Assembly (NCBI RefSeq): GCF_032854445.1
Contig: NC_088295.1
Span: 92,311,805-92,375,804, forward strand
Source of the DNA: Liolophura sinensis
Taxonomy: Eukaryota; Mollusca; Polyplacophora; Chitonida; Chitonidae
Reading direction: 5' to 3'
Length of the DNA: 64,000 nt
Made by a program: the position numbers and the translations under genes. Positions within the stretch are counted from its first letter, which is position 1. Every line of letters begins with the position of its first letter. Shown here in pieces: positions 53-63,783 of the stretch. The notes beneath the pieces are model-generated. The model was not told the DNA's origin. It made no database searches and was given only the letters and a program-made list of their open reading frames with translations.

Positions 53-3000
53 AGTCGGCTACGCCACAACAGCCACCATGGGAGCCTTACATCCCTGAAG
101 AACCCAGCCCCATTTTGACAGGCTTCTACACCGACGAGGGCAAATTCTGGCTCTCTATGGTACGACTGAATTCACATGTAGTATAATGTTAGAATTGAGG
201 ACATGGTGTTTGTATTAGCTAAAATAAATAATCTGGTCATGAATGTATATAAATCAAATGTTTCCTACATTTTATGGTCAGGAAACATGAACATTTTCTG
301 TAACAAAACAATTTGTCTTCTTCATGAGTCAGTCATAGACAGTGGTACAGTGAGACAGGTCTATAATGTTTATAGATACAGTACATTTTAAGATGTGTCA
401 TTTAAAATAGCAGACACTTCTCCATCTGTCTTTAGTGGTGTCAGGAACCTAATATCTGACATTAAACACAGCCTGTGTGTGTTACAGGGTGGATTTGATG
501 CTGGTTATCTGTACGAGTGTAAGTTCTTGTCAGAAGAGGAGAAAGCCAGCATGAGAAAAGAGAATATAGACAAGCCCCTGAGGGCAGTGTCTGTCATAGA
601 CTCCAATGATGTTCCTATCACACAGATCAAGTTCAGGTAAATACCACCCATCAGATCCCTTACTAACAACAAAATTTACATTATAACAAACTCTTTGTTT
701 TCTGCCTTGTAAATTGGCAATCATACTGTGGTGTTGACTCTATCTTCTAGTTAGGAGTACAGCCTATTGTTTATGTAAAGCTTAATAATCTGTGTAATTT
801 CAAAAACTAAATGGTTAGTACATGTACATCACAAACCAGTTAAATGTAATGGATGGATACCACATGCCCATTGTCCCAGCACATCCCATCACAGAGAGAA
901 TGAACATTTGTAATCAATGTGTGGGACATCCAGCTGATCTATTAACAATAATGTAATGGATGGATACCAAATGCCCATTGTCCCAGCACATCCCATCACA
1001 GAGAGAATGAACATTTGTAATCAATGTGTGGGACATCCAGCTGATCTATTAACAATAATGTTGGTTAGAATTGGTCAAATGCCTGTCTTGATTGGTGTGT
1101 GGAAAGGTATCTGACAGGTGTGTCTGCCACTGGACACAGCGTAGGCTGAGGTGTGGTGAATTTTTCTCTAATGCTGGGATTCCACTGACGTGTGATTGTA
1201 TTTATCATTACTTGTCTGTTAGTTCTGAAAATGGGAATTACATCAATACCCAGGAGTGTTTCCACGGACTCAGCAGGAGTCTCTAGCATAAAACATGTCC
1301 CATTTTTCACATATCAGAAAAGGATTTAGTACTGGGATGGGTTGACAGATTATTTGAATCACAGTTGTCAACACATGGGCCATGGAAACGCTGTAACAAA
1401 TGCGTGAAGTAATCGCATGAAGTAACACAAACTCTTGTTTGTGGAATCACAGCCAAAAGCAAGATGAATATAACATATGTTGTACTCTTTTCTCTAACAG
1501 TTCTAAGGTGGATCAGGTGCTGATGGGCATGGAGAACGGTGCTGTGCGGATCCAGCAGATGGACCCTGAGTCCCAGGAGAAGGACCTGGGTCTGATGGGG
1601 CCCTACTGGATGCTGACCATCCACGACAACAACTACGGCCACATCACTCGTCTACTGACCAGTCACGATGACACCTACATCCTCACTGTTGGCAGAGATG
1701 GCAACTTCTTTGCCTTCAACATGATGGGACAGGAGGAGATAAAGGAGAGAGTGGCTGAGGCCAAGGCCAGACTTCCATCTGCCAGGGTAAATACCTGCAA
1801 ATACTCAGCTCATTGTGCTGAGAAACCAGTAATTACCATAACCAGGGTTCCTTCTACCAACATGAAAACCTCCACTCTGCTCACTGTACTGAGAAACCAG
1901 TAAATACCATAACCAGGCTCCCTTCTACCAACATGAAAACCTCCACTCTGCTCACTGTACTGAGAAACCAGTAAATACCATAACCAGGCTCCCTTCTACC
2001 AACATGAAAACCTCCACTCTGCTCACTGTACTGAGAAACCAGTAAATACCATAACCAGGCTTCCCTCTGGCAGAGTAAAAACCTCCACTCTGCTCACTGT
2101 ACTGAGAAACCAGTAAATACCATAACCAGGCTCCCTTCTACCAACATGAAAACCTCCACTCTGCTCACTGTACTGAGAAACCAGTAAATACCATAACCAG
2201 GCTTCCCTCTGGCAGAGTAAAAACCTCCACTCTGCTCACTGTACTGAGAAACCAGTAAATACCATAACCAGGCTCCCTTCTACCAACATGAAAACCTCCA
2301 CTCTGCTCACTGTACTGAGAAACCAGTAAATACCATAACCAGGCTTCCCTCTGGCAGAGTAAAAATCTCCAAATACTCTACTCATTGTACTCAGAAACCA
2401 GTAATTACCGTAACCAGACCCCGCTCTGCCATAACCAGATGCCCCACCCCCACCCCCTACCCCCACCTCTGGCAGAGTAAAAACCTCCAAATACTCTACT
2501 CATTGTACTCAGAAACCAGTAATTACCATAACTAACTTCATGGTCTAGGTTCTATTAGCAATTGTAGATCTATTCTTCACATGTCCACTTATATATAATT
2601 ATTACAGCTAAAGATATTGAAACATTTATGTTTTATACACAGTGTATTCCACATGAGTTAGTATACACTGTATAAATAAAGTAACCATTGCACTTTTTGT
2701 TGTCTGACGTTAGGTTTGAAAACTCAGTCCTGTGGCATTGTATTCACTGCACTGACTGGATTTTGTCAAATAACATCAGGGACTCCGTGGCTCAGTTGGT
2801 TAGCGCGCTAGCGCAGTGTAATGACCCAGAAGCCTCTCACCAATGCGGTCGCTGTGAGTTCAAGTCCAGCTCATGCTGGCTTTCTCTCCGGCTGTACGTG
2901 GGAAGGTCTGGCAGAACCTGCAGATGATTGTGGGTTTGCCCTGGGCTCTGCCCGGTTTCCTCCCACCATAATGCTGGCCGCCGTCGCATAAGTGAAATGT

Positions 3001-6000
3001 TCTTGAGTACAGCGTAAAACACCAATGAAATAAATAAATAAATCAAATAACATCATGTGTCATATTGCAGGCTATTGAGGAAGACAAGGTGGTTGATGAT
3101 ATTGATGACCCTAATGCTTACAGGTAATATAATTTTCTATGTGATGGGAAGTGTCTGGCCTTGTGGTTTACAGTGATGGTGTTAAAGTGATGTCACTGGA
3201 ATGTCTGTGTATCATGATGAAGTCTAAAAAAATCAGACAAATTTCAGAAATACAAATTTGTGAAGGTATGTTATGCGACTTTTCTTCGGAAGTTGGCTTT
3301 TGGTGTTTCAAAATGATTAGATGTGAAACTGCCTTTTGGTGAGATGTATTGTGTACAGTGTATTGTAATGTTTAGCTAATTGTGCCGTAAGGTAAATCTC
3401 AATGTTGGTATTCTTTCAGTATTGAAGATGCCAAACAAAAAGCTGAACATGACAAGATGATCCGTCAAGCCGAGGAAAAAAAGAAAGACGTTCGCCGTCA
3501 CATCGCCAAACTACGTCGAGACTTCAAAACTCTGCTGGAGAAGAACAAGACTTTACCTGAACATCTACAGCTCCACAGAGGGGTAGGTAGTGGGGTGAAG
3601 TACCAACACGCAGAGCCTCACTGTAAATTATTCAAAGGAAATGATCTTTCGTACAAGTAGTGTATATTTAGGCTACAACATGCAATACTGCCATTTTGAT
3701 CAGTGAACACCTGCAAACTGGTTCTAAATACTGATTATTACATCTCCATTTTTGTTCATCACCAGGAATTTGAAATGGATCGAGAAATCAAACAGGAGCT
3801 AGAGAAGCAGATTCAAGACAAGATAGAACTGATGAAGAAAGAGATGGCATGGGATTCTGAGAAACACAGACTGGCTCTAGAGAAACTCCAGATGAAGTAC
3901 GATCAGTGACAATCAAAGATTGTTCTTTATTGCTGAAATGCAGGTCATAGTTATAATGTTAATTGGAAGGTCTATTTTCAAAGGAGTTAAAGTTAAAATG
4001 TTACGATGAAATGTAAACTGTTATTCTACTTCACAGGTAACACTTGGAGTGTGTATGCTCCCAAGGCTGTCATGTAGTATATGGTTTTGTTTTAATCAAA
4101 CCTGTGATATTCCTTGTCTGTTTCTGTAGGTTTAAGGAAGTGGTGGAGTGTGAGAGGATTGTGGTGAAATCCTTCAACTCTCCACATGAGGTGGCCACAT
4201 TTAGGACGGCTAAACTCTCGGATGACTTCTATGACATGAAGGCTTTGTTTCAACGCCGGAAAACAATGTTCCTGTCGGGACCCTCCAGAGATACCACCCG
4301 AGAACTACGAACAGGTCAGTGTGCAGGGGCCGTTTAAATTGCCCGTCTTCACCTTCTGTATGATGTTAATACTAAAATTCGGTCTTGTTTAATAATATGA
4401 TGTATTTTTTCAGTCACTGGACTCAAATAATATGTCCATTTTGGGTCACACTGTGTAATTTTTTGATTCTCCAATAACCCTAGCATAATGCAAAATCATA
4501 GACCCTACTACACTGAGAATTTGCCTTGTGAACAAAGTTATATTTGTAGTCTTCAGACGTCAACATGGAAACAACAGTGGAGGTGCTCAGTTTATTCTGG
4601 GTGTATAGTCTGTGCCTTAAGGATCACTGTTGAAGTAACGTATTGTGATTTTGAATCCTTCAGGTCAGACCAAGCAGACAGAGGGTGGACAGGCCGTCTC
4701 TGATGTGCAAGAGAATGCCGACCTCAAAGTGAAAACATCTCTGAAGGGTAGCATGGGAGACCGCATCACTCAGGCCTTACTCAAAGTGGACGAGAAGAAA
4801 CATCAGAGAGCGGTCAGAAAAGCTCAGGTAGGTATTAACACACGCCATGCATAGGCTTCCTGTAAGGTACATATAACATAACAGAACATGTAAGTAACAT
4901 TCCCAATCTACTTCCTATAAGAAAGATATCACCAAACCTATAAGAACATGCAGTGCAAGCATGCATACATATGTAGTCACTATAGTTCATACGTTCAACG
5001 CAGTGTTGCAACATCTTGGTAGAACATGGCCATAGTCTGTACATGTGCACAGTAGCTTGGTTTGCTCACCAGCATGTCATAGTGGGATGAACTAGTGTTC
5101 TGGTGACATCTTCATCTGGCTGCATTTTCTGTATGATGAAGTTTGCTGATGTTTTTGTTCAGTGGGATGAACTGTTGGCCAGCAAACCTGATGATGATTA
5201 TGAAGACCCAGCAGATGTGGCGGCGATTAAGGAGGCCAAGGAAAACATGGGGGACTACAAGCTGAAGACAGCTCCAGACTATGTTGTCCCAGATCACATG
5301 AGGATGAACGTGGAGAAGGCCAGGGGACGACTTCTTGTCATCAAGGATCTCGTATGTTATTCCAAATCATCCAAATTTCCATATTGACAATAATGATAAC
5401 CAGTTGCTACACAAGGGCTGTGATGTTGATAAGTTTACTTTCTTTAAGACTGTTGCTATAATCCCTTGGGTTCAGTGCCTTTGCCTGAAGCATACACTGA
5501 TTGGGTCAGTGTACTGATATTATGCACCACCAAGATCACAAAGCACATGTATTATCAAATCTTCTGTTCTTGCCAACAGATCCACCAGCACAAGTATGAC
5601 TTCAATGCACAGCTGCTGGCCCTCCGGGACAGGAAGATCTCCTTACTGGACGTCCTAAGGGAGTTGGTGAAGGAGCTAAAGGAGGTTCAGGCTGAGCTAG
5701 GGCCCCACAAGCGCCTGCCTCTCCCTCACATACCCGATCTCCACCCAGAGGAGATGCCAGAAAAGTAAGGCACTCAATCACTGTCATTGTCACCAAAATC
5801 TGTATATTGTTTTGTATTCTCACACGGTCAGAAGGGACTTTTTTTTCATTAGAGAAAAACATTTCAGTTATATGAAATCTTGCCTGTTAAGAATTTTGGC
5901 AATCTTTTTTTGTTTTTTTTTTGCTTCAGCATATCAGTGTAGTGTGATCATGCTTATTTACTTCCAGGCAGTTGGAATACACCCGTGAAAGCCTGCTGGA

Positions 6001-17044: not shown

Positions 17045-20000
17045 TTAGAATGGAATCTGAGGTGAAGTACGCCTTGTCTTAAGCCGGATAAACTCGAGCC
17101 AATTCCACAAGCAGCCGCGGTCATGTATATTTCCTCTAGCATAGAGGCCGAGAACTGTCATACCTCTCACAGCGGCCATGTGGAGCTCCTGGGAGGTGAT
17201 GTTCTGGCTTATCAGGAGTAGCTGAAGGAGTAGGGCCACGCACATAATACTGCTGCCCAGAATAGCATAGCAGGCACAGACAAAACATAATGCAGTGCTG
17301 CAAAAGACGACAAACACAACCAACTGTTAGCACACTACACTTAATTTACTTATTTGTTTGATTGGCGTTTTAAAGCTGTTCTGCAGAATGTTTTTCTTAT
17401 ATGTTGGCACTCAGGTTTATAGGCAGGAAATCAGAATGGCCTTTGGCATGTACAAATTTAGCTGACAAACCTCCCTGACCTGAAGAGGCAACTAAACAAT
17501 CAAAGCTGGACTCAAATACACAACCTCATACACTGTAAAAACACCCAAAGACGTTTCTGATGCCAAGAGTGTCAAAATTCCAAGGATTCCTATACTTTCA
17601 CATTACACATATAGTGTCACCTGACAAAAATGTAGTACATGTATGAGGACTGTTATTACAGAAGTCTTAATACTCATATAAATATGAGTTGACATGGTTA
17701 ATATCATTAGAACAGGCATCTTTAATTGGGCTGCGTTGTTTAATACAAGGCAAGTTGAAGGTGTAACTCACGAAAAATCTGCGTAGACATATCGGCAGTC
17801 ATTAGGTAAGAGGAACCAGTCGTAATACATCTCCGGGGTACAGATGGTGGTTAAGGTAAGGTGAGCGCCATAGAAACCAGTGAAGACAAACAGCAGAATG
17901 GCCACTAAAAATGAGCGATGATTGTGAGCCCCAATACAGTTGTCCACCCTGCAAACAGATCACACAGATCAGACAATCATAAAGTCCCAATACAGTTGTC
18001 CACCCTGCAAACAGATCACACAGATCAGACAATCACACAGCCTCAATACAGTTGTCCACCCTGCAAACAGATCACACAGATCAGACAATCACACAGCCAC
18101 AATACAGTTGTCCACCCTGCAAACAGATCACACAGATCAGACAATCACACAGCCCCAGTACAGTTGTCCACCCTGCAAACAGATCACACAGATCAGACAA
18201 TCACACAGCCACAATACAGTTGTCCACCCTGCAAACAGATCACACAGATCAGACAATCACACAGCCCCAATACAGTTGTCCACCCTGCAAACAGATCACA
18301 CAGATCAGACAATCACACAGCCCCAATACAGTTGTCCACCCTGCAAACAGATCACACAGATCAGACAATCACACAGCCACAATACAGTTGTCCATCCTGC
18401 AAACATATCACACAGATCAGACAATCACACAGCCACAATACAGTTGTCCACCCTGCAAACAGATCACACAGATCAGACAACCACACAGCCCCAATACAGT
18501 TGTCCACCCAGCAAACAGATCACACAGATCAGACAATCACACAGCCTCAATACAGTTGTCCACCCAGCAAACAGATCACACAGATCAGACAATCACACAG
18601 CCTCAATACAGTTGTCCACCCAGCAAACAGATCACACAGATCAGACAATCACACAGCCTCAATACAGTTGTCCACCCTGCAAACATATCACACAGATCAG
18701 ACAATCACACAACCCCAACACAGTTGCCCACCCTCCAAACAGATCACACAGATCAGACAATCACACAGTCCCCAACACAGTTGTCCACCCTGCAAACAGA
18801 TCACACAGATCAGACAATCACACAGCCTCAATACAGTTGTCCACCCTGCAAACAGATCACACAGATCAGACAATCACACAGCCCCAATACAGTTGTCCAC
18901 CCTGCAAACAGATCACACAGATCAGACAATCACACAACCCCAATACAGTTGTCCACCCTGCAAACAGATCACACAGATCAGACAATCACACAGTCCCAAT
19001 ACAGTTGTCCACCCTGCAAACAGATCACACAGATCAGACAATCACACAGCCTCAATACAGTTGTCCACCCTGCAAACATATCACACAGATCAGACAATCA
19101 CACAGCCACAATACAGTTGTCCACCCTGCAAACAGATCACACAGATCAGACAATCACACAACCCCAATACAGTTGTCCACCCAGCAAACAGATCACACAG
19201 ATCAGACAATCACACAGCCTCAATACAGTTGTCCACCCTGCAAACAGATCACACAGATCAGACAATCACACAGCCTCAATACAGTTGTCCACCCTGCAAA
19301 CAGATCACACAGATCAGACAATCACACAGCCCCAATACAGTTGTCCACCCTGCAAACAGATCACACAGATCAGACAATCACACAGCCCCAATACAGTTGT
19401 CCACCCTGCAAACAGATCACACAGATCAGACAATCACACATCCCCAATACAGTTGTCCACCCCGCAAACAGATCACACAGATCAGACAATCACACAGCCC
19501 CAATACAGTTGTCCACCCCGCAAACAGATCACACAGATCAGACAATCACACAGCCTCAATACAGTTGTCCACCCAGCAAACAGATCACACAGATCAGACA
19601 ATCACACAGCCCCAATACAGTTGTCCACCCTGCAAACAGATCACACAGATCAGACAATCACACAGTCCCAATACAGTTGTCCACCCTGCAAACAGATCAC
19701 ACAATCACACAGCCCCAATAAAACTGTCCACCCTGCAAACAGATCACACAGATCAGACAATCACACAGCCCCAATACAGTTGTCCACCCTGCAAACAGAT
19801 CACACAGATCAGACAATCACACAACCCCAATACAGTTGTCCACCCAGCAAACAGATCACACAGATCAGACTATCACACAGTCCCAATACAGTTGTCCACC
19901 CTGCAAACAGATCACACAGATCAGACAATCACACAGTCCCAATACAGTTGTCCACCCTGCAAACAGATCACACAGATCAGACAATCACACAGTCCCAATA

Positions 20001-23000
20001 CAGTTGTCCACCCTGCAAACAGATCACACAGATCAAACAATCACACAACCCCAATACAGTTGTCCACCCTGCAAACAGATCACACAGATCAGACAATCAC
20101 ACAGTCCCAATACAGTTGTCCACCCAGCAAACAGATCACACAGATCAGACAATCACACAACCTCAATACAGTTGCCCACCCTCCAAACAGATCACACAGA
20201 TCAGACAATCACACAACCCCAATACAGTTGTCCACCCTGCAAACAGATCACACAGATCAGACAATCACACAGTCCCAATACAGTTGTCCACCCTGCAAAC
20301 AGATCACACAGATCAGACAATCACACAGCCTCAATACAGTTGTCCACCCAGCAAACAGATCACACAGATCAGACAATCACACAACCCCAATACAGTTGTC
20401 CACCCAGCAAACAGATCACACAGATAAGACAATCACACAGCCTCAATACAGTTGTCCACCCTGCAAACAGATCACACAGATCAGACAATCACACAGCCTC
20501 AATACAGTTGTCCACCCTGCAAACATATCACACAGATCAGACAATCACACAACCCCAATACAGTTGTCCACCCTGCAAACAGATCACACAGATCAGACAA
20601 TCACACAGTCCCAATACAGTTGTCCACCCAGCAAACAGATCACACAGATCAGACAATCACACAGCCCCAATACAGTTGTCCACCCTGTAAACATATCACA
20701 CAAATCAGACAATCACACAACCCCAATACAATTGTCCACCCTGCAAACAGATCACACAGATCAGACAATCACACAACCCCAATACAGTTGTCCACCCTGC
20801 AAACAGATCAGACAATCACAGTCCCAATAGAGTTGTCCACCCTGCAAACAGATCACACAGATCAGACAATCACACAACCCCAATACAGTTGTCCACCCTG
20901 CAAACAGATCAGACAATCACAGTCCCAATAGAGTTGTCCACCCTGCAAACAGATCACACAGATCAGACAATCACACAACCCCAATACAGTTGTCCACCCT
21001 GCAAACAGATCACACAGATCAGACAATCACACAACCCCAATACAGTTGTCCACCCTGCAAACAGATCACACAGATCAGACAATCACACAGCCCCAATACA
21101 GTTGTCCACCCAGCAAACAGATCACACAGATCAAACAATCACACAGTCCCAATACAGTTGTCCACCCTGCAAACAGATCACACAGATCAGACAATCACAC
21201 AGTCCCAATACAGTTGTCCACCCTGCAAACAGATCACACAGATCAGACAATCACACAGTCCCAATACAGTTGTCCACCCTGCAAACAGATCACACAGATC
21301 AGACAAACACACAGCCACAATACAGTTGTCCACCCTGTAAACAGATCACACAGATCAGACAATCACACAGTCCCAATAAAGTTGTCCACCCAGCAAACAG
21401 ATCACACAGATCAGACAATCACACAGCCCCAATACAGTTGTCCACCCTGCAAACAGATCACACAAAGTCAAGACTATAATACAAACCCAATACAACTTAC
21501 CATACACAGTGATGGTCTCTATTGAGTATACATGCCTGACACACATGACAATGGCCAGCTCGCGGCGGTTTGACCAGACAACATTTATCACACCAGGTCA
21601 CAAGCTGATTATCTGAAACACAAACAACCATTCTCACAATACAGGTTACCAATCAGACTGCTTTTGTCACACATTTTAATATTACAAAAGCAGCCTTTGT
21701 CATGCTGTATGACTTATTACAAACTAGGGGGCTTCCATAGCCAAGGTCCTTACCCAACAATGCGGTGGTGGTGAGTTCGTCCAAGAGGAAAGGTCTCACT
21801 CCGCCAGATCCCTGGGCTCTGCCTGGTTTCCACCCACCATAATACTAACCACCACTGTATAAGTGAAATATTCTTGAGTCTGGCATAAAACGCCAATCAA
21901 ATAAATAAACGCATCAGTATTACAAGCAGCCTTTGTATTACCTTTGTACCCACACAAACGGCTTTGTCAGAGCATATGACAGTCACACTTTGAGTCACAA
22001 TGTATTAATACAGTCCAGCTCAAGTCCAGCTTATGCTGACATTTTCTCTGACACGATGCGAGAAGGTGTAGCAGCAACTTGCGCATGGTCATGGGTTTCC
22101 CTCAGGCTCTGCCACATTTTTTCCCGACCATAGTACTGGCTGATGTCACATAAGTGAAATATTCTTGAGTACAGTGTAAAACACACATCAAATAAGTAAA
22201 TAAATCAAATAAATAATGCCTAAACAGCCATTATCACACTGTTTTACCACACAGCCAGCCTTTGTAATACCGGCACTAATTTACTGCACACACACTTTGT
22301 CAGAACACTTTACCACACAAACATCCTTTCCCATGTCACATTCTGTCACTTTTGTCACATAACATTACCATTCAGACAAACTTTATCCCAACATATTTGA
22401 TTGCAATGATAATGTAAGCCAATGAGAGTAGGAAATCCTTGAATTATTATAGTTCATATAAATGACACATATATTTACAGCCACCGGCAAATACATATTT
22501 TACCTACCTTTAATTGGTCGCGAGTCCACCCAAGTGACCTTTTGTTCAGGCATACTGGGAGCTGTTTGAGCCTGGTAGTTGGCTTTAAACGATTCCTTGT
22601 CGAAGCCCATGTTTGACAGCAGGAAGTTGCCCAACACATGCTCAGAAATTGTTTTCGAGTAATCATCCTTGGAATCTTTCTGACTGGCTGCATCCTTCTG
22701 ATCCTGACTGGACGACAGGTGTTGATTGGATGGAGTAACTGTGTCGGGCGAGGCTGGTTTAATGATTCCTGGATCTTTTCTCACAAATGTGAGAGCGAAG
22801 AACATGATGCCGATGGACGTAACCAGAAGCATCTGCTCCCACAGAAACACCTCTCGGAAGGACAGAACAAATGCGTGATAAATCAAAATGGTAAAGAGCA
22901 CAGAGGTCATAGCCCAGGCATAGAAAAACTTTGTACGCACTCTGTTGTGTTGAGTTCTCCATGAGCGATAGAAGAGGAACATGAAGATAGGCATGGAAGC

Positions 23001-25257
23001 CAGAACAAAGATTGTCATGTAGAAATTGATGGTGCCAAGACAGAGGCTGATAGGCACTGTCACAATGGGGACAACTACATCAATCTTAACTCTGATGGCG
23101 CCTGATCCACTCAATCCTGGGATGCGACATCTGTCTGCTATTGTCCTCCACATCCTCTCTGATAACTGCTTGGGTATTGGGCGACACGTAATACACCTGC
23201 AACAAGGCTACAAGATAACAGCTGTGGTACTGGGTGATGTGTAATACACAGTCTGTAACAAAACCATAACATAACTGCTGGGCTATTGGGCAACAAGAAA
23301 TACACATGTATCAAGACTATAAGGTAACTGCTGGGGTATTGGGCAACACGAAATACACCTTATAAAGTAACTCCTGGGGTACTGGGCGACACATAATACA
23401 CCTGCAACAAGGCTACAAGATAACAGCTGTGATATTGGGCGATATGTAATGCGCAGTCTGTAACAAGACCATAACGTAACTGCTGGGCTACTGGGCAACA
23501 CGAAATACACCTGTAACGAGACTATAAGACAACTGCTGGGGTATTGGGCGACATGTAATACACCTGCAACAAGGCTACAAGATAACAGCTGTGGTACTAG
23601 GTGATATGTAATGCGCAGTCTGCAACAAGACCATAATATAACTGCTGGGCTATTGTGCGACATGAAATACACCTGTATCAAGACTAAAAGGTAACTGCTG
23701 GGGTATTGGGCAACACGAAATACCCCTGTATCACGACTATATGATAACTGCTGGGCTATTGGGTGACACATAATACACCTGGAACAATGCTACAAGATAA
23801 CAGCTGTGGTATTGGGCGATATGTAATGCGCAGTCTGTAACAAGACCATAACATGACTGCTGGGGTATTGGGCAACACGTAATACACCTGTAACAAGACT
23901 ATAAGATAACTGCTGGGGTATTGGGTGACACGTAATACACCTATAACAAGACTATAAGATAACTGCTGGGGTATTGGGCGACATGTAATACACCTGTAAA
24001 GATACTATAAGATAACTGCTGGGGTACTGGGCGACATGTAATACACCTGTAAAGATACTATAAGATAACTGCTGGGGTAATGGGCGACATGTAATACACC
24101 TGTAAAGATACTATAAGATAACTGCTGGGGTACTGGGCGACATGTAATACACCTGTAACGAGACTATAAGACAACTGCTGGGGTATTGGGCAACATGTAG
24201 TACACCTGTAACAAGACTATAAGATAACTGCTGGGGTATTGGGCGACAAGTAATACACCTGTAAAGATACTATAAGATAACTGCTGGGGTACTGGGCGAC
24301 ATGTAATACACCTGTAAAGATACTATAAGATAACTGCTGGGGTAATGGGCGACAAGTAATACACCTGTAAAGATACTATAAGATAACTGCTGGGGTAATG
24401 GGCGACATGTAATACACCTGTAAAGATACTATAAGATAACTGCTGGGGTACTGGGCGACACCTAATACACCTGTAAAGATACTATAAGATAACTGCTGGG
24501 GTAATGGGCGACATGTAATACACCTGTAAAGATACTATAAGATAACTGCTGGGGTAATGGGCGACACGTAATACACCTGTAAAGATACTATAAGATAACT
24601 GCTGGGGTACTGGGCGACATGTAATACACCTGTAAAGATACTATAAGATAACTGCTGGGGTACTGGGCGACATGTAATACACCTGTAAAGATACTATAAG
24701 ATAACTGCTGGGGTACTGGGCGACACGTAATACACCTGTAAAGATACTATAAGATAACTGCTGGGGGTATTGGGTGACACGCAGTACACTTGGAATAAGA
24801 AACAAGACTACATACATGTAAGATAAGTGTCGAGGTATTAGGCAACACGTACACTTGCGCCAAGACCATTTGGTATACATAGCAACATACAAACTGAACG
24901 AATGTTGAAAATGCCACACAAAGCACATCAATATATACATACATGTATCTGTATTTACTGCAGCATAACCCTGAACTCTTGTATCTGTTCCAAACTTTGG
25001 AGAGACATGTACACATGAGCGATAGGATGAATCTGCTACAGCGTGATGCCTGTCCCAAAATATTTTTGTGGAGCATAGCAAACCTGTTCTTGTCTTTGAT
25101 ATGGTTGACATATTTCACAGCTTCACTTTTCTCACCTGTCAAATGCTTGGTCCAGTGCCTCACAATCACAGAAACATCCTAATATGTGACTTCTTGCTCC
25201 ATCCTCGTTCCTGTATTCACAGCAGCATAAGGATTCTTCCGTGCTGGACTTAGTCAT
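17045..25257 (-). CDS. ZDHHC23: ZDHHC23-like palmitoyltransferase, complete, 5 exons, 450 aa
   Basis: DHHC enzymes S-acylate cytosolic cysteines of membrane proteins. Coding exons in transcript order: 25257-25136, 23196-22508, 21612-21501, 17948-17772, 17297-17045; all are GT-AG and phases join into 450 residues ending TAA (human ZDHHC23 is about 409). The N-terminal cysteine-rich stretch (ESLCCCEYRN, CFCDCEALDQAFDR) and IADRCRIPG match my recollection of ZDHHC23. Hydrophobic segments lie in exon 2. The cysteine-rich domain starts WCDKCCLVKPPRAGHC and the catalytic Asp-His-His-Cys is intact at about 303-306, followed by VWVDNCIG across the exon 3/4 junction. Two more membrane segments and a TSQEL segment follow. 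The start ATG at 25257 is the one preceding the conserved cysteines. Introns 1 and 3 are filled with minisatellites made from their own acceptors. Confidence 0.9.
17345..17535 (-). mobile_element. Decayed SINE fragment (family B-like)
   Basis: The plus strand shows a TTGATTGGCGTTTTAAA start and ends in CTGGACTCAAATACACAACCTCATA, matching the tRNA-like part of the 8140-8395 element (TTCAAACACAAGACCTCATA). It lies in ZDHHC23 intron 4. Confidence 0.5.
17928..21479 (-). repeat. Minisatellite, 56-bp unit, about 63 copies, made from the ZDHHC23 exon 4 acceptor junction
   Basis: The array fills ZDHHC23 intron 3 and merges into exon 4. In sense orientation each unit reads pyrimidine-rich GATCTGTGTGATCTGTTTGCAG (in two halves GATCTGTGTGAT, CTGTTTGCAG), then GGTGGACAACTGTATTGG, which is identical to the first bases of exon 4 (17948 downward). 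Units vary at a few sites (CCCC/CTC/CAC/TCC before AATACAG on plus; CCCTGC, CCAGC or CCCGC). A few are shortened, e.g. at 19695 and 20810-20830. The unit has no stop in any plus-strand frame, which creates very long spurious open frames. Confidence 0.97.
21727..21907 (+). mobile_element. Decayed SINE (family A), 3' portion
   Basis: Contains CAATGCGGTGGTGGTGAGTTC, CTGGGCTCTGCCTGGTTTCC, ACCCACCATAATACTAACC and CATAAAACGCCAATCAAATAAATAAA, all diverged from the 2779-3042 copy. It lies in ZDHHC23 intron 2. Confidence 0.8.
22012..22217 (+). mobile_element. Decayed SINE (family A)
   Basis: Shows CAGCTCAAGTCCAGCTTATG, GGGTTTCCCTCAGGCTCTGCC and TAAGTGAAATATTCTTGAGT, ending in (AAAT)n. It is a second family A copy in ZDHHC23 intron 2, about 100 bases from the first. 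Confidence 0.8.
23160..24800 (-). repeat. Minisatellite, 53-bp unit, about 30 copies, made from the ZDHHC23 exon 2 acceptor junction
   Basis: The array abuts exon 2 within intron 1. Sense units read GTATCTTTACAG (or GCCTTGTTGCAG) followed by GTGTATTACGTGTCGCCCA, ATACCCCAGCAGTTATC. The first 36 bases of exon 2 (23196 downward) are the same with one A/C difference. Units at 24000-24770 are nearly identical (homogenised). Those at 23200-23900, next to the exon, are more varied and mix several subtypes. Confidence 0.95.
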
Positions 25258-32597: not shown

Positions 32598-50602
<18,005 letters not shown>

Positions 50603-51969: not shown

Positions 51970-51977
<8 letters not shown>

Positions 51978-53213: not shown

Positions 53214-53245
53214 AGGTAGAATAGATTCTAGAATCTATTCTACCT
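53214..53245. repeat. 32-nt perfect palindrome
   Basis: AGGTAGAATAGATTCT is followed immediately by its own reverse complement, centred on TTCTAGAA. It has no spacer and no nearby tandem copies. No coding or transposon context was recognised. Confidence 0.95.

Positions 53246-53827: not shown

Positions 53828-53828
<1 letters not shown>

Positions 53829-53907
<79 letters not shown>
53829..53907. repeat. (TA)n microsatellite, about 39 dinucleotides
   Basis: Uninterrupted TA alternation; likely length-variable. Confidence 0.98.
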
Positions 53908-53910
<3 letters not shown>

Positions 53911-54096
53911 CAAATGCATTACATAGACCTCGGATCAAATCCTATAGTTCGGGAGGGGTGTAATGTCTGTTGTTTTCGGAATGATACTTCAGTGGCTGCC
54001 CAGCACTTCGGCGGCATGCATTTGCTCTGCCACAAAAGAGACAGAATATATACAGGCTGCACGCACCTTATCGCCATACATATGACTTCAACCGGC

Positions 54097-54345
54097 TGTA
54101 CGATTTGATTTATTTACTTATTTGATTGGTATTTTATGCCGTACTCAAAAATATTTCCATATACGACGGTGGCCAGCATTATGCCGGGGGAAACCCTCGA
54201 CCATCCGCAGGTTGCTGATAGACCACATACGGCCGGAGAGGAAGCTAGCATGAGCTGGACTTGAACTCCCAGCGACCGCATTGGTGAGAGGCTTCTGGGT
54301 CATTACGCTGCGCCAGCGCGCTAACCAACTGAGTGTACGATTTGA
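54097..54345 (-). mobile_element. Full-length SINE (family A), minus orientation, 12-bp target-site duplication
   Basis: Flanked by the perfect duplication TGTACGATTTGA at 54097-54108 and 54334-54345. Minus-strand head CTCAGTTGGTTAGCGCGCTG, B box GGAGTTCAAGTCCAGCTCAT, body and tail GTACGGCATAAAATACCAAT, then (AAAT)n. Confidence 0.93.
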
Positions 54346-55059
54346 AACCCCAAGCCTACATACATACATTGAAATGTATTACAGAAGAGTTCGGTGAAGA
54401 TAGCGGGCCGCGGAACAATACCGTGCACGCACGAACGGTGACTGTGCTTCTCCCCTCACATATGGCGTATCACAGGGCGCGACCCGCAACACGAGGATCG
54501 TATCAGTAGATTTGCATCGTCCTCATGCAGTGGGGTCGAGTCCCTCGAGGTTCTGGACGAAATGTCCTCGTTGAGTTTCCATACCTAGGAGTTTTAGGGA
54601 CCTTAGCTTTTTTTGGGTCGGATATATATTAGACAGTATGCCTTAGCAAACCCAAACTATATGACGTGCCCGCGAAAAGGACAACAGTATGCAATATTTG
54701 GCTGTTTGCTATCATAATTTTAGTCACTGGCTATCTGAAATACTAGAACTTCGGGGGCCTATAGACTTCGGCCTTACTATATAGTGGTATATCTCACGGG
54801 TCGTGAAGTTTCAATAAATTTAGCTTAAGGGATACATGAAAAGGTTCTATAAAATGGAGAGTATGGTTGTAATTAAGGAAAATGAAGCAAGAGCCAAAAG
54901 ACTAGAATTTGTTTTTGCATTTTTGAGGTATACTTTAGATTTCTTGATAACTTATTTATGCATATTCTATGTCAATGGTCGGAAATATTCGAAAATAACG
55001 TCATCGATGAGCATACTGAGAAAGCGAGCAAAATTCGAGCTCCACCCGCTGTTTTTGCC

Positions 55060-55127
<68 letters not shown>
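55060..55127. repeat. Compound (TA)n(TG)n microsatellite
   Basis: About 12 TA followed by about 22 TG dinucleotides, about 220 bases upstream of the TOM70 start codon; (TG)n can adopt Z-DNA, so it might influence the promoter. Confidence 0.97.
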
Positions 55128-55129
<2 letters not shown>

Positions 55130-55349
55130 GGCCATATCGTATGCCAGTAATTCCGTCGTATAGAATAAAAGCCAATATTTCATGCATATCCATTAAGGTG
55201 TTTATACATTTTGATCACTTATATATCTTTGCATTGGACAAGCAAGTTGCTTGAAACAATACTTAGTGGGCCAACATGTGCGTGCATTTGTGAAACGGTA
55301 ATTAAGGGGAGATAACTTCAGCTCGCTAACTATTTGAGCTCCGAGCACG

Positions 55350-58300
55350 ATGGCCTCGAAACTGAAAACTGCGCTGGAAGGATGGGAGAATTGGCAAATT
55401 GCTGTTGCAGTCGGGGCGCCGATTGCGCTAGGACTAGCTGGTCTCTGGTATTATAAACTGTCAAATTCAAACAAGACAGTCGACAAGTCGAATAAAGCGA
55501 AGGGTGACACGGAACCCGTGTCCCAGAAAACTGACGCCCAGGTATTCATGCTTGCAACAACAACACCTCCATACCTATAAAACGCTACTACCGGTATCTG
55601 GCGGATTGTGAATATGCTAATACTCTGCGTTCGATCCCTTTATTATCGCCATCACAGGGAACAGTTTCTGCCTGTTTCTTGGATAGATCGAATGTGGCAC
55701 TAACTGTAGTACAGTTATACGCTGACACTGACTGATACTTGTCAGTGATATAAGCTGTGTATTTGACATAATTCAACGCATGTGCAAGTCAGTCTGAACA
55801 TGCACTGACAGCTTAGCAAGCCAACAAAACATGCAAGTGTTGACTTCATTGTAAAAACTGCTGTCTTTGTGATAAGTATTCTTGTTTTGAAGGCAGTCAT
55901 GGATTTTTGTGACCTTTGAGACATGTTTCAAATAGTGCGTTTTGGCAGGTTCCCAAAAGTTACACTGTTCATGTACATGTATGTCATATATTTGCATGTT
56001 GGTACACGTAGTGCACAAAATAATCCATTTTAATGTTCACCACAGTATTATTCCACCTCAGAATTAAAATCTAAAGTTTCCAGCATTCAAGCATGTAAAA
56101 TAGTTGAGAAAATACATGCACTGGTTGGTTAATTGTCAGCAGAATGATAAAGTTGATTTTGGGAAAGGCGAGGGTTGACACCTGTTTTCAATAGTTCAGT
56201 GGCTATTTCAGGGTTGCCACAGTCATGAAGCAATCTGAAAAGTCATGGATATATTTCCCAGTCATGGATTGTCATAAAAAAAATCATAAATTTTGAAAAG
56301 TTAAGAGAATGTAATGATTTTTTTTCTTAAATGTAGACAGGTATACTTGTATCAGTATGACATATCATTTGACCACACTTTTCCCCAGTGTTTGCCTACA
56401 CTTGTCCCAGTGTTGTGAAGAAAGTGCCTCACACCTCTTGTTTTTCATATCACATTTTGGTTGAGTTATGGTGTGCAAGTGAGAGACTTGAACAGCTAGT
56501 AGCAAAGACTTTCACGGAAGAAAACAAATTTTTGGGGCATTCAGAGTCTTGTATAACAGACTTAGGAATTTAGAGAAGAGAAAATATATTGTGTGTTAAA
56601 TGCACAATGCACACACAGTCTGTTGGTGGATTAGGTGGCTAAAAGACAAGATGTGGAAACGATAGTCATCTACAGTAAAAATAATTGCACTCTGAAGACA
56701 GGTTTTTCAGATTTGATCAGCTTGCATGAATAAATCATGAATTTGATCTTATTTGATCAGTGGCAACCCTGCTATTTACGTAGAAAGAATCTCAGAGAGA
56801 CAGTAGTTCCAATTGTTCTGTCAGGGCAAAAAACTAGATGATCATGAACACCTGAAACAACAGATACACGCAGTGCTTTGTGAGAGACTCGTAGAATGTG
56901 TACAGCTGTCTATACCTACTGGTGATTAAGAGTGGTGGGTGAAGGAAATATCAGATAATGGTTATGATATCAGATAATGGTTATGATATCAGATTATTGC
57001 TAAAGATATGCAGGAAATTCACAGTTTTATTACAACGATACTATTTCCCTTCCAGCTAAAGTTAGAAAAAGCTCAAGAGGCCAAAGTTAAAGGAAACAAA
57101 TACTTCAAAGGAGGACGATATGACCTTGCCATTGAGTGTTATACAGAGGCTATCAGGATGTGTCCTGACAATCAGGCTTCTGATCTGGCCACCTTTCATC
57201 AAAACAGAGCAGCAGCATGAGCAACTTGTGAGTACCTATAATGGCCATCCGAAGTCATACATGTAATTCATCATAAAAATTATATGTGTACAATATAGGA
57301 AATATTTAGGAACATATTTAGGAGAAGTGCTTTGCTGGCAAAACATTTTTAGCAAACCAACAAAGTGAAACAAAGCACTGTCTGTGTGACTGCAGACCAT
57401 TAGCTTAATTAAAAAATTGCTGGTGGGTATATCATTAAACTATTTCTGGTGTGGGTATCATTAAACTATTTCTGGTATGGGTATCATTAAACTATTTCTG
57501 GTATGGGTATCATTAAACTATTTCTGGTGTGAGTATCATTAAACTATTTCTGGTATGGGTATCATTAAACTATTTCTGGTATGGGTATCATTAAACCATT
57601 TCTGGTGTGAGTATCATTAAACTATTTCTGGTATGGGTATCATTAAACCATTTCTGGTATGGTATCATTAAACTATTTCTGGTATGGGTATCATTAAACC
57701 ATTTCTGGTGTGAGTATCATTAAACTATTTCTGGTATGGGTATCATTAAACTATTCCTGGTGTGGGTATCATTAAACCTATTTCTGGTATGGGTATCATT
57801 AAACCATTTCTGGTGTGAGTATCATTAAACTATTTCTGGTATGGGTATCATTAAACCATTTCTGGTGTGAGTATCATTAAACTATTTCTGGTATGGGTAT
57901 CATTAAACTATTCCTGGTATGGGTATCATTAAACTATTCCTGGTATGGGTATCATTAAACTATTTCTGTTGTGAGTATCATTAAACTATTTCTGGTGTGG
58001 GTATCATTAAACTATTTCTGTTGTGAGTATCATTAAACTATTTCTGGTGTGGGTATCATTAAACTATTTCTGTTGTGAGTATCATTAAACTATTTCTGGT
58101 ATGGGTATCATTAAACTATTCCTGGTGTGGGTATCATTAAACTATTTCTGTTGTGAGTATCATTAAACTATTTCTGGTGTGGGTATCATTAAACTATTTC
58201 TGTTGTGAGTATCATTAAACTATTCCTGGTGTGGGTATCATTAAACTATTTCTGTTGTGAGTATCATTAAACTATTCCTGGTATGGGGTATCATTAACTA

Positions 58301-61300
58301 TTCCTGGTATGGGTATCATTAAACTATTTCTGGTGTAGATATCATTAAACTATTTCTGCTATGGGTATCATTAAACTATTTCTGGTATGGGTATCATTAA
58401 ACCATTTCTGGTGTGAGTATCATTAAACTATTTCTGGTATGGGTATCATTAAACCATTTCTGGTGTGAGTATCATTAAACTATTCCTGGTATGGATATCA
58501 TTAAACCATTTCTGGTGTGAGTATCATTAAACTATTTCTGGTATGGGTATCATTAAACCATTTCTGGTGTGAGTATCATTAAACTATTTCTGGTATGGGT
58601 ATCATTAAACTATTTCTGGTATGGGTATCATTAAACTATTCCTGGTATGGGTATCATTAAACTATTTCTGCTATGGGTATCATTAAACTATTCCTGGTAT
58701 GGGTATCATTAAACCATTTCTGGTGTGAGTATCATTAAACTATTTCTGGTGTGGGTATCATTAAACTGTTCCTGGTGTGGGCGTCATTAAACTATTCCTG
58801 GTGTGGGCGTCATTAAACTATCCCTGGTGTGGGTATCATTAAACTATTCCTGGTGTGGGTATCATTAAAGTGTCTCTGGTGTGAGTATCATTAAACTATC
58901 CCTGGTGTGGGTATCATTAAACTATTCCTGGTGTGGGTATCATAATATTTAAGTTTGGCATGAACAGAAATCAAATAAAGCCCAAAACATTCTCAGGTCA
59001 ATAGCTAAGTACCCTAAATGATCTGAAATTTTGCAAACAATAGTGCATAAGTAGGCATATTAATGTCACAAAATATTATTTTTGGCTCTGAAAGTTACAT
59101 CTTTTCAGTACAATACCATCCCATGTTTCAAGCAAACCTCAAAACATCTTTCAAAAATCAATAGAACTCTCAGAATCAGGAAAAATGGGCAGGTTAGTCA
59201 TGGATGGAATTTAGTGTCATTTAGGGTATCAGCTTTTGAAGGGAATTTCTTTGCTTTTATTCTGTTTGTACTGAACATGTGCTGAAAGGTAGTAAGAAAA
59301 TTTGATTACTAACATATTCAAGCTTGTCTTGTGAGAACAAAAAAGGTATTAATAATGATTTTAGATGTGTTAGCCTTTCAGTGTAGAGTAGTTTATTTGA
59401 GGAAGATTACTAACATGAAGGCAAAGCACAGCATACCTTATATAGTGCAGTATTTCGTTACCATTGGCATTGTATTCCTGTATATTTTTATACAGAAAAA
59501 CAATGAGAAAGTGATTGAAGATTGCAACCGTGCTTTGGAGCTGCATAACAGATATGTAAAGGCCTTTTTTAGACGCGCTAAGGCTTTCGAGCAAACAGGA
59601 CAACTGACAAATTCTCTGGAAGGTAAGCAGAAGGTGTAAGTTCACTCTCAAATAAAATGATGTAGAATTGTATAACATATTGTTATCATGAGTATCCCTA
59701 TACCCACTTGGGGGTTTAATGACACAGGAGCCTCTCACCAATGCGGTCACTGTGAGTTCAAGTCCAGCTCATGCTGGCTTCCTCTCCGGCTATATGTGGG
59801 AAGGTCTTGAAGCAACCTGCAGATGGTCATGGGTTTCCACGGGCTCTACCCAGTTTCCTCTCACCATAATGCTGGTCGCTGTCATATAAGTGAAATATTT
59901 TTGAGTATGGCGTAAAACACCAATCAAATAAATAAATAAAAAAATTTTTTTCTTGGAGTTACAAATGTAAACTGAATTCTTTTCTTCAAATTTGAGATAA
60001 TATGAGGATTTATCTCTGGATGTGAAATACACAAAATGGTCCACTTTCAACCATTATACAACTTTTTCAGTTCAAAATATTTCAAAAAAACAGTGTTGTA
60101 AATATAAACTTATAGTTTATAAATAATACAGGTAAATCATTTAGGGCTAGTTTGTTTTTTTCTTCAAATTTGAGATAATATGAGGATTTATCTCTGGATG
60201 TGAAATACACAAAATGGCCCACTTTCAACCATTATGCAACTTTTTCAGTTCAAAATATTTCAAAAAAACAGTGTTGTAAACTTATAGTTTATAAATAATA
60301 CAGGTAAATCATTTAGGGCTAGTTTGTGAGTTATCACATTGTACATAGGTAAATCATTTAGGGCTAGTTTGTGAGTTATCACATTGTACATAGGTAAATC
60401 ATTTAGGGCTAGTTTGTGAATTATCACATTGTACATAGGTAAATCATTTAGGGCTAGTTTGTGAATTATCACATTGTACATAGGTAAATCGTTTAGGACT
60501 AGTTTGTGAGTTATCACATTGTACATAGGTAAATCATTTAGGGCTAGTTTGTGAGTTATCACATTGTACATAGGTAAATCGTTTAGGACTAGTTTGTTAG
60601 TTATCACATTGTACATAGGTAAATCATTTAGGGCTAGTTTGTTAGTTATCACATTGTACATAGGTAAATCGTTTGGGGCTTGTTTGTGAATTATCACATT
60701 TGTGAAGGTTAAAGAATGTCCACCCAGATCTTGATATTTTAAATAAATACTCTAGTTAGTTGTGTGCTTTGGTGACCCAAAACTATTTAATAAATCTCCA
60801 CAAAGATCTTAGCATCATTCACTTGGTGCAATTTTCAATTAACTGGGGTATGAGTAAAAAAAAAAAAATACTGTGCGAACTGTATGAGTCCATGGTCCTG
60901 TTTATTTTTAGTGAAATTAGTTTGGAGGGGGGCAGAGCATAAATATTTTTTAGGTTCATCGAGGTACAAACGCAAAAAATTGACTTATCAGAAAGAACTT
61001 TATTGCTTAAACACAAAGAAAATTTAATTATTTAAATTTGTAGTCAATGTAAATTTCCACACAATGTATGACAAACAGGAATCATCGTTGATGGAGAAAA
61101 TTGTGCAAGTTTTACATTAAAGTAACAGTGATCCAAAAAAAGAACATATCTGGATATGACCATTCTGGTCCATGGATTATGTATATAGTTTTTGCATTAA
61201 GGCTCAGTTTGTCTATTTCTATGATTTTAATACTGGGGGATTTGTTTATTACAAGGTGGCCTATCAAACGCATCGATAGTAAAATTTAGTGTGTACTATT

Positions 61301-63783
61301 GGTGTGTCTTTAGTATTTTGTTGCATTGTTGTATTTGACAGTTGTAACGGCCTTGTATGGAGGTATTAAAAAATCAGATCAGCATATAGTGTTATAAGTT
61401 TCTCTTTTTGAGATAATTGGGTAAATAGACACATTAACAAAGAAATTGTAATAAGGATATAATCAAATTCTTTATAATCTAATCGTTATCTCAGTCTGAC
61501 CCTGTTTTGTCAAATTATGTTTTCCAGATATAAAATCAGTGTGCAGCACACTTTGTGTCTGGCACTATTGTGAACACTGTGGTTTATGTGAAAAGACTGG
61601 TCACCAGATATGTGTGCTTTTCTTGTCAGATAGAACAGCGGTGTGCGGTCATATGTGTGTTTGTGTTGTCAGATATAACAGCGGTGTGTAGTCATGTGTG
61701 TGTTTTTGTTGTCAGATATAACAGCAGTGTGCAGTCATGTGTGTGTTTTTGTTGTCAAATATAGCAGCAGTGTGCAGTCATGTACATTTTTGTTGTCAGA
61801 TATAACAGCAGTTTGCAGTCATGTACGTTTTTGTTGTCAGATATAACAGCAGTGTGCAGTCGTGTGTTTTTGTTGTCAGATATAACAGCAGTGTGCAGTC
61901 ATGTATGTTTTTGTTGTCAGATATAACAGCAGTGTGCAGTCATGTATGTTTTTGTTGTCAGATATAACAGCAGTGTGCAGTCATGTGTGTGTTTTTGTTG
62001 TCAGATATAACAGCAGTGTGTAGTCATGTACATTTTTGTTGTCAGATATAACAGCAGTTTGCAGTCATGTGCGTTTTTGTTTTCAGATATAACAGCAGTG
62101 TGCAGTCATGTGCGTTTTTGTTGTCAGATATAACAGCAGTGTGCAGTCGTGTGTGTGTTTTTGTTGTCAGATATAACAGCAGTGTGCAGTCATGTGTGTG
62201 TTTTTGTTGTCAAATATCGCAGCAGTGTGCAGTCGTGTGTTTTTGTTGTCAGACATAACAGCAGTGTGCAGTCATATATGTGTTTTTGTTGTCAGATATA
62301 ACAGCAGTGTGCAGTTGTGTGTTTTGTTGTCAGATATAACAGTGGTGTGTAGTCATGTGTGTTTTTGTTGTCAGATATAACAGCAGTGTGCAGTCATGTG
62401 TGTTTTTGTTGTCAGATACAACAGTGGTGTGTAGTCATATGTGTGTTTTTGTTTTCAGATATAACAGCAGTGTGCAGTCGTGTGTTTTTGTTGTCAGATA
62501 TAACAGCGGTGTGTAGTCATGTGTGTTTTTGTTGTTAGATATAACAGCAGTTTGCAGTCATGTGTGTGTTTTGTTGTCAGATATAACAGCGGTGTGTAGT
62601 CATGTGCGTTTTTGTTGTCAGATATAACAGTAGTATGCAGTCATGTGTGTGTTTTTGTTGTCAGATATAACAGCAGTCATGTGCGTTTTTGTTGTCAGAT
62701 ATAACAGCAGTGTGCAGTCATGTATGTTTTTGTTGTCAGATATAACAGCAGTGTGCAGTCATGTATGTTTTTGTTGTCAGATATAACAGCAGTGTGTAGT
62801 CATGTACATTTTTGTTGTCAGATATAACAGCAGTTTGCAGTCATGTGCGTTTTTGTTTTCAGATATAACAGCAGTGTGCAGTCATGTGCGTTTTTGTTGT
62901 CAGATATAACAGCAGTGTGCAGTCATGTGCGTTTGTGTTGTCAGATATAACAGCAGTGTGCAGTCATGTACATTTTTGTTGTCAGATATAACAGCAGTTT
63001 GCAGTCATGTGCGTTTTTGTTTTCAGATATAACAGCAGTGTGCAGTCATGTACATTTTTGTTGTCAGATATAACAGCAGTTTGCAGTCATGTGCATTTTT
63101 GTTGTCAGATATAACAGCAGTGTGCAGTCATGTATGTTTTTGTTGTCAGATATAACAGCAGTGTGCAGTCATGTATGTTTTTGTTGTCAGATATAACAGC
63201 AGTGTGTAGTCATGTACATTTTTGTTGTCAGATATAACAGCAGTTTGCAGTCATGTATGTTTTTGTTGTCAGATATAACAGCAGTCATGTGCGTTTTTGT
63301 TGTCAGATATAACAGCAGTGTGCAGTCATGTATGTTTTTGTTGTCAGATATAACAGCAGTGTGCAGTCATGTATGTTTTTGTTGTCAGATATAACAGCAG
63401 TTTGCAGTCATGTGCATTTTTGTTGTTAGATATAACAGCAGTGTGCAGTCATGTACATTTTTGTTGTCAGATATAACAGCAGTTTGCAGTCATGTGTGTT
63501 TTTGTTTTCAGATATAACAGCAGTGTGCAGTCATGTGCGTTTTTGTTGTCAGATATAACAGCAGTGTGCAGTCGTGTGTTTTTGTTGTCAAATATAGCAG
63601 CAGTGTGCAGTCATGTGTGTTTTTGTTGTCAGATATAACAGCAGTGTGCATTCATGTGTGTTTTTGTTGTCAGATATAACAGCAGTGTGTATTATGGAGA
63701 ACTTTGATAACCAGCAAAGCCTCCTCATGGCAGACAGGGTGCTAAAGGAGTTGGGGAAAACCAAGGCTAGGGAGGCATTCAAG
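55350..63783 (+). CDS. TOMM70: TOM70 mitochondrial import receptor, 5' part (exons 1-4); continues beyond window
   Basis: Outer mitochondrial membrane receptor that takes preproteins from Hsp70/Hsp90 by its TPR domain. Exons: 55350-55541, 57056-57227, 59496-59622, 63674-63783; donor after the last at 63784. Exon 1 (64 codons, start MASKLKTALEGWENWQ) has one membrane anchor (AVAVGAPIALGLAGLWYY) and a Lys-rich linker. Exon 2 has TPR 1 (KVKGNKYFKGGRYDLAIECY, then DLATFHQNRAAA). Exon 3 gives EKVIEDCNRALELHNRYVKA, FFRRAKAFEQ. Exon 4 gives ITAVCIMENFDNQQSLLMAD. Order and motifs match human TOM70 as recalled. Exon 2 as given is 172 nt where 174 is needed: after NRAAA a 2-base gap makes an immediate TGA (57218-57220), with the expected sequence resuming as GAGCAACTT before the donor. 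Either an assembly error or a true frameshift. Confidence 0.92.
57418..58945 (+). repeat. Minisatellite, 26-bp unit, about 58 copies, TOM70 intron 2
   Basis: Unit GGTATCATTAAACTATTTCT followed by GGTATG, with subtypes GGTGTGA, TTGTGA and GGTGTGG before GTATCATT. Many units therefore contain GTGAGTAT, a strong donor match. The array starts about 190 bases after the real exon 2 donor (CTTGTGAGTACC), with which it shares TTGTGAGTA. Confidence 0.96.
59716..59945 (+). mobile_element. SINE (family A), 5'-truncated
   Basis: Begins AATGACACAGGAGCCTCTCA and contains B box GTGAGTTCAAGTCCAGCTCA, body ACCATAATGCTGGTCGCTGT, and GGCGTAAAACACCAATCAAA with (AAAT)n tail. The A-box head is missing. TOM70 intron 3. 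Confidence 0.88.
59975..60325. repeat. Two-copy tandem duplication, about 172-bp unit
   Basis: Both copies run TTCTTCAAATTTGAGATAAT, ATGAGGATTTATCTCTGGAT through to GGTAAATCATTTAGGGCTAG. The second copy leads directly into the 45-bp array, whose unit is the end of this duplication. Confidence 0.88.
60295..60700. repeat. Minisatellite, 45-bp unit, about 9 copies, TOM70 intron 3
   Basis: Unit GAGTTATCACATTGTACATA, GGTAAATCATTTAGGGCTAG, TTTGT. Because 45 is a multiple of three, the minus strand has one open frame repeating 15 residues (YNVITHKLALNDLPM); this has no other sign of being a gene. Confidence 0.93.
61518..63673 (+). repeat. Minisatellite, about 41-bp unit, about 50 copies, made from the TOM70 exon 4 acceptor junction
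   Basis: Each unit is GTGTTTTTGTTGTCAG followed by ATATAACAGCAGTGTG, then CAGTCATGT. The first sixteen bases after the AG are identical to the start of exon 4 (63674 onward, codons for DITAVC), and some units (TGTGTAGTCATG) match further. Length varies 39-43 bp through TG and T-run slippage. The true exon is the final copy of the array. The 5' boundary is degenerate (61518-61610). Confidence 0.95.

Follow-up and report, generated by a model that had tools for sequence, protein, structure and literature searches.

The DNA analysed here is a 64-kb window of the genome of the chiton Liolophura sinensis, taken from the contig that we label C1 (C1:92311805-92375804); as far as the accessible text of the assembly paper goes, the genome was published as Liolophura japonica (PMC11068029), and a correction renames the species L. 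sinensis (PMC12441733). A mitochondrial contig with the gene order nad3-nad2-cox1-cox2-atp6, in which COX1 was identified by a sequence match, agrees with a mollusc and led us to reject amphioxus as the source. Joined exon pieces match CFAP44 chains with an E value of 8.7e-39 and TOM70 chains with an E value of 8e-52, the latter alignment passing through the exon that adjoins a large tandem array, and these protein matches bear out both genes as named in an earlier sequence-only reading. The same reading had placed two further arrays in ZDHHC23. The two exons around the first of these match the DHHC family (Pfam PF01529, E 2.9e-22), so that the family stands; at the second, the exon has an open frame of 235 codons on the strand that carries the DHHC exons and was assigned to the DHHC gene by position only. 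Many predicted exons on the minus strand between 33358 and 42674 belong to a gene that we take to be Na/K-ATPase-like. The frame of TOM70 exon 2 is broken by a TGA at 57218-57220, where the human chain has ..RAAAFEQL.., perhaps through an indel in the assembly or because the copy is damaged. An interspersed repeat, perhaps a SINE-like family, occurs on both strands at 2685-2990, 41333-41680, 54086-54300 and 59692-59890, and also in other loci that we fetched.

TRF returned 31 rows for the window, among them seven arrays with at least 3.5 copies and a period of at least 20, and four of these seven span a splice junction (Table 1). In the four arrays, which we call mirages after the amphioxus structures discussed below, the unit crosses the exon-intron boundary and includes about 19-36 nt of exon. 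One lies at the 5' side of its intron (the CFAP44 donor) and three at the 3' side, and both types also occur outside the window. Each of the four arrays lies to the intron side of its junction and leaves the real exon with an undamaged site; at array 2 that exon is recognised by its open frame only.

Table 1. Exons and tandem arrays of the 64-kb window (positions counted from the first base of the window)
Feature	Position	Strand	Description and basis
CFAP44 exon ending at the real donor	1501..1786	+	exon prediction and protein match; last ~20 nt recur, diverged, in the array
CFAP44 donor (5'SS) mirage	1803..2417	+	71-bp unit, 8.6 copies, 142-bp higher-order period; TRF
DHHC exon from the real acceptor (plus-strand base 17948), VDNCIGAHNHRSFLVA	17771..17948	-	Pfam DHHC; lower bound is the ORF limit
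DHHC-gene acceptor (3'SS) mirage 1	17927..21494	-	56-bp unit, 64 copies; 34 nt intron and 22 nt exon per unit
Upstream DHHC exon (ending ..CVW), donor of the 3552-nt intron housing array 1	21501..21652	-	upper bound is the ORF limit
Exon that follows mirage 2 (plus-strand base 23196 is its real acceptor)	22508..23196	-	open frame and junction
Acceptor mirage 2	23161..24779	-	53-bp unit, ~30 copies (TRF 30.5), 36 nt exon per unit
26-bp array, TOM70 intron	57408..58943	+	TRF
45-bp array, TOM70 intron	60302..60700	+	TRF
TOM70 acceptor mirage	61610..63689	+	41-bp unit, 51 copies; TRF
TOM70 exon with the real acceptor, ITAVCIMENFDNQQSLLMADRVLKELGKTKAREAFK	63674..63783	+	exon prediction and protein match

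We compared units with real sites by a junction-anchored alignment of the unit consensus. In DHHC array 1, which runs over 3.5 kb, every 56-bp unit has TTTGCAG or a variant of it, followed by the first 22 nt of the exon, which starts with GGTGGACAACTGTATTGGGGCT at plus-strand base 17948; the unit consensus equals the real acceptor and exon start at 36 of 36 positions, 22 nt of exon included. Array 2, next upstream in the gene, repeats ..TTTACAG joined to GTGTATTACATGTCGCCCAATACCCCAGCAGTTATC, the start of the exon at base 23196, and its consensus agrees with the real acceptor and exon start at 39 of 43 positions (36 nt of exon). The TOM70 array places 2.1 kb of 41-bp units, in which TTGTCAG is joined to ATATAACAGCAGTGTG, ahead of the exon at 63674, which translates as ITAVCIMENF..; here 33 of 36 positions agree. 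The acceptor units also have a clear intron part with a pyrimidine-rich stretch. At CFAP44, where the donor position can be written after base 1785 or 1786, the exon edge reads ..CTTCCATCTGCCAGG on the exon side and GTAAATACC on the intron side, and diverged copies of it recur in the 71-bp array up to 2417. This array is the most diverged of the four: within the tested window the sole copy above the cut, at +572, matches at 29 of 36 positions, the copy nearest the exon matches at only 21 of 36, and of the two unit types in the 142-bp period one has no GT. TRF, the raw sequence and the junction-anchored comparison agree for all four arrays that the unit comprises a splice junction with adjoining exon, as had been claimed. 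The 26-bp and 45-bp arrays in the TOM70 introns contain donor-like words, and by eye they share no sequence with an exon. Away from any predicted junction, a CFAP44 intron holds a 107-bp two-copy tandem duplication with 99% identity (843-1061), a very recent event.

The sequence-only reading knew of no named system to which these arrays could belong. The structure does have a name in amphioxus, and an earlier paper on it (Canestro 2002) is cited by later ones. Mirages are tandem repeats that span exon-intron boundaries in Branchiostoma genes (PMC3087553, PMC3902484), described in the available text for Adh3 and the globins BflGb6 and BflGb9 (PMC3087553) and, with PMC3902484 adding these two, for PGBD5 and troponin C. 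According to the accessible parts of these papers, amphioxus mirages resemble the chiton arrays in that the unit spans the boundary, 5' and 3' boundaries are both affected, the real exon is intact and many copies keep AG or GT; amphioxus units measure 10 to 160 bp, and normal splicing and somatic instability have been reported. The chiton arrays are longer, with up to 64 copies as compared with 3 and 6 in two BflGb6 haplotypes and 2-7 in PGBD5, as given in the same parts, and the host is a mollusc rather than a lancelet. Judged by their sequence anatomy, the window arrays are thus mirages, a kind already named, here in a mollusc.

Other systems are more distant. VNTR6-1 in TERT intron 6 is likewise a long intronic tandem array, with a 38-bp unit; the available text of PMC11830802 does not describe it as crossing an exon edge. 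Intron gain by duplication of an AG/GT proto-splice site (Rogers 1989, as cited in the accessible part of PMC3087553) likewise yields new splice-site pairs beside an exon; that model concerns new introns, whereas the chiton arrays lengthen existing ones. Minisatellites of earthworm metallothionein genes were considered as a parallel and set aside, since in the available text (PMC12783039) they do not span exon edges. We found no report of mirage-type repeats in molluscs or chitons in the open-licence literature; the accessible text of chiton genome papers (including PMC11068029) has no mention of "tandem repeat", and in one paper checked "minisatellite" is absent as well.

The four arrays appear to have arisen independently, as the sequence-only reading had supposed. 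Among the 15 pairs formed by six window units, none is more alike than shuffled sequences (the lowest share of shuffles reaching the observed score is 0.09), which suggests that the units are unrelated. Units at most five apart have mean identities of ~0.93, 0.83-0.86 and 0.89 in the three long arrays; identity hardly drops with distance in DHHC array 1 and the TOM70 array, and falls from ~0.83 to 0.75 at 20 or more units apart in array 2.

The same structure recurs at further loci, several of them with protein-supported exons, which supports the proposal of a recurrent class. For donors, we searched the genome for tandem pairs of the word CAGGTAAGT with a spacer of 21-51 and inspected 16 loci among the first of the 484 pairs listed, all on C1. 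In seven of the 16 loci (L035, L037, L038, L040, L041, L042 and L043) the array starts at an open frame that resembles an exon, and the final 9-35 nt of this frame are repeated in the units. The exon has protein homology in three of them, to RPC1 (L037, through the last exon residue), gelsolin (L038) and GH31 (L040), and is putative, called from open frame and position, in L035, L041, L042 and L043. One more locus, L034, is doubtful and lies outside the count of seven, and the other eight have no convincing exon. The L041 and L034 exons have no match in PDB or Pfam, and those of L035, L042 and L043 have none in Pfam; L041 is presumably DERA-like, L034 PKD2-like and L042 ARFGEF-like. At L042 the predicted exon stopped short of the array, and we lengthened it by eye up to the first repeat. 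The count of mirages excludes weak exon predictions with little or no coding score at L032, L047 and L050, as well as an open frame next to L045. Four more stretches at clusters of the single word yielded a 75-bp two-copy duplication over a donor (L049, exon by open frame only), and the other three have no convincing exon.

For acceptors, 20 of about 29 loci listed for the word TTTTCAGGT (a hand count) were inspected, and two are acceptor mirages: L056, where protein homology places the exon in an amine-oxidase family gene and 12 nt of exon are shared, 10 of them identical, and L070, at an exon placed likewise in a peptidase S10 gene. Of the other 18, 17 have no convincing exon at the array end. 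The remaining one, L060, which by protein homology lies in a DIL-domain gene, we counted separately and rejected as an acceptor mirage: the shared sequence of its 30-bp, 16-copy array sits at the exon's donor. The L060 array begins in the last bases of the exon, and its units stay near the exon's final codons. An 83-bp two-copy duplication covers a predicted acceptor at C1 20,066,703 (exon by open frame only); this and the 75-bp duplication at L049 look like first steps of mirages. As we read L042, its 38-bp unit is made up of ~35 nt of exon and 3 nt of intron, and the joint of the duplication itself produces the consensus donor GTAAGT; this is a candidate for an initial step in the making of a donor or an intron.

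Recurrence at junctions raises the question whether tandem amplification initiates preferentially there, as had been proposed from the sequence; transcription-linked breaks or R-loops would be a possible route. Within the window the numbers speak for it: when the seven arrays were placed at random over 94 junctions (predicted ones plus hand-added boundaries of the DHHC region), a mean of 0.33 fell on a junction and at least four did so in 1 of 4000 simulations, a post hoc figure, since the window had been flagged for its junction arrays. With four of seven, the window is a local extreme.

As a genome-wide test in motif form, we counted tandem pairs per single match for each splice word, with its reversed word as an imperfect baseline. 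The donor word CAGGTAAGT gave 484 pairs in 9807 matches (4.94%) and its reversed control 242 in 4849 (4.99%); for the acceptor word TTTTCAGGT the counts were 193 in 13438 (1.44%) and 122 in 8358 (1.46%), copy-level counts being dominated by a few large arrays and the acceptor control pairs being split into 93 forward and 29 reverse. When the excess over the baseline is taken as real splice sites, the paired share is ~4.9% for donors (242/4958) and ~1.4% for acceptors (71/5080), no different from other sequence. For each motif the paired share equals that of the reversed word, so these counts do not support a preference for junctions. Roughly half of the CAGGTAAGT matches exceed the control count, so that about half of such arrays would be expected at exons from a blind process; the 7 of 16 C1 donor-motif arrays, among those listed, that start at an exon are therefore no more than this expectation.

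At the level of loci, we took the first 100 listed matches each of the donor word and its control and merged same-strand matches by distance. Clustered loci were 6 of 48 for the donor word and 7 of 59 for the control at a 400-bp merge (p 1.0), and 6 of 46 and 7 of 57 at 700 bp; at 120 bp, a distance that splits single arrays into several loci, they were 15 of 62 and 6 of 70 (p 0.018). The excess of junction arrays anticipated by the sequence-only reading is accordingly absent at copy level and at the two wider merges, and appears at the 120-bp merge.

An unselected 200-kb sample with 96 predicted junctions points in the same direction as the copy counts, as none of its 26 arrays clearly spans a predicted junction, with 0.36 expected; flanks were read by eye for some of these arrays only. 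Of the predicted exons of this sample that score at least 7, a doubtful one at C1 20,058,587-20,058,763 is separated from an array by 9 nt, and two others, which sit inside an array or extend across one, appear to be false. A duplicate test centred on exons flagged 2 of 88 predicted junctions in the window, where the gene finder missed both of the DHHC-region ones, and none in the gene at 33358-42674. In the 200-kb sample it flagged 3 of 95, of which two belong to an exon predicted inside an array; with controls at one unit per array of 2.9% and 2.5%, there is no clear excess. These junctions come from a home-made exon finder trained on the window and the 200 kb, many of whose weak calls are false, including exons inside arrays. 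Taken together, we consider a general preference for junctions unlikely. A modest bias toward or away from junctions may exist, as may a local or context-dependent one, given that four of seven window arrays far exceed the uniform expectation.

The explanation that we regard as probable is that these mirage-type minisatellites result from blind tandem duplication in a minisatellite-rich genome and are tolerated while the exon keeps its intact site. A splice site would by chance fall within an ordinary tandem duplication, some tens of base pairs long, and slippage or unequal exchange would then amplify the unit on the intron side. In the acceptor case the new upstream copy would turn intronic and the last copy would stay on the exon; in the donor case the first copy would stay on the exon and the array would grow in the intron. 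Such a process would be blind to junctions in a genome that makes many minisatellites, and the resulting arrays would be nearly neutral.

Tolerance has to accommodate a large number of decoy splice sites. The sequence-only reading had put these at about 150 in 64 kb, and we counted 150 copies besides the four real sites, 124 of them with an intact AG or GT (158 units and 129 intact under other thresholds, with the real sites counted in). AG is kept in 49 of 63 decoys in DHHC array 1, 24 of 28 in array 2 and 47 of 50 in the TOM70 array, and GT in 4 of 9 at CFAP44. By position weights derived from exon predictions in the L. sinensis genome, 75 of 141 acceptor decoys scored at least as high as the true acceptor, and none of the nine donor decoys reached the true donor. 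In the DHHC intron alone, 49 decoy acceptors precede the real one and 43 score at least as high. Local signal strength does not single out the true acceptor, which suggests that the authentic site is favoured by exon definition, through the neighbouring exon and the partner splice site.

Use of an acceptor decoy in the true reading frame would lead to an early stop in 63 of 63 cases in array 1, 25 of 25 in array 2 and 50 of 50 in the TOM70 array, decoys lacking AG being included and the frame being given by the protein match (array 1, TOM70) or the long open frame (array 2). Read-through at CFAP44 meets a stop at 1901, ahead of the first GT-bearing decoy at 2075. Mis-spliced products would therefore be expected to be degraded, and such loss of decoy-spliced transcripts through their early stop could allow junction arrays to persist. 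The proposal that some process tolerates arrays carrying splice signals is borne out to the extent that the exon's own site is intact, and it is on this intact site that tolerance would depend.

Could the arrays instead be kept by selection for a role in splicing, slowing or regulating exon inclusion or buffering the real site? The high scores of the acceptor decoys and the well-kept AG of the TOM70 array would fit such a role. However, in DHHC array 1 only three of the 56 columns vary more than the A of AG (78%), GT is kept in fewer than half of the CFAP44 decoys, array turnover alone also predicts good conservation across the unit, and early stops would result from decoy use; we therefore regard selection for a splicing role as quite improbable. 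The offset to the best-matching copy, modulo 3, is mixed and follows no frame rule.

Still less probable is an assembly artefact in which a short duplication was falsely expanded. HiFi coverage is only 14x according to the accessible part of PMC11068029, yet the reads average 8,347 bp in the same source, more than the 3.6 kb of the longest array, the copies differ among themselves at the identities given above, and comparable PGBD5 repeats of amphioxus were confirmed by resequencing, as stated in the available text of PMC3902484. The least probable reading is that an exon segment containing AGGT was duplicated in tandem, that an intron was recently gained in this way and that the arrays are what is left of the event: the nearly all-exon unit of L042 with its joint-made GTAAGT would suit it, and intron gain from mirages has been proposed for amphioxus globins (PMC3087553, accessible part), but the window units have their clear intron parts, pyrimidine-rich at the acceptors.

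Returning to blind duplication and tolerance, we may tentatively ask what it would mean more widely. It is conceivable, if doubtful at present, that mirages are a general by-product of minisatellite-rich animal genomes and a source of intron lengthening, boundary shifts and new introns, with which the spliceosome copes by exon definition. Chiton mirages may number in the thousands, an extrapolation rather than a count. If so, mirages would go on supplying introns with sequence from exons and with ready-made splice sites. That a poorly known feature of amphioxus also occurs in a mollusc suggests either that it arose convergently or that it is general among animals. The splicing machinery must choose one correct site among dozens of near-identical copies, and for acceptors it would do so by exon definition; the arrays are natural splicing experiments in which the choice of site would test exon definition against first-AG scanning. 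For the model in which introns are gained by tandem duplication they provide raw material, and gene predictors should be wary of them, since a simple home-made one put exons inside arrays.

A separate observation concerns the assembly. Mitochondrial COX1 matches occur on contig C99 about every 15.5 kb (seven matches), with one more on C632; C99 is a mitochondrial concatemer in the assembly.
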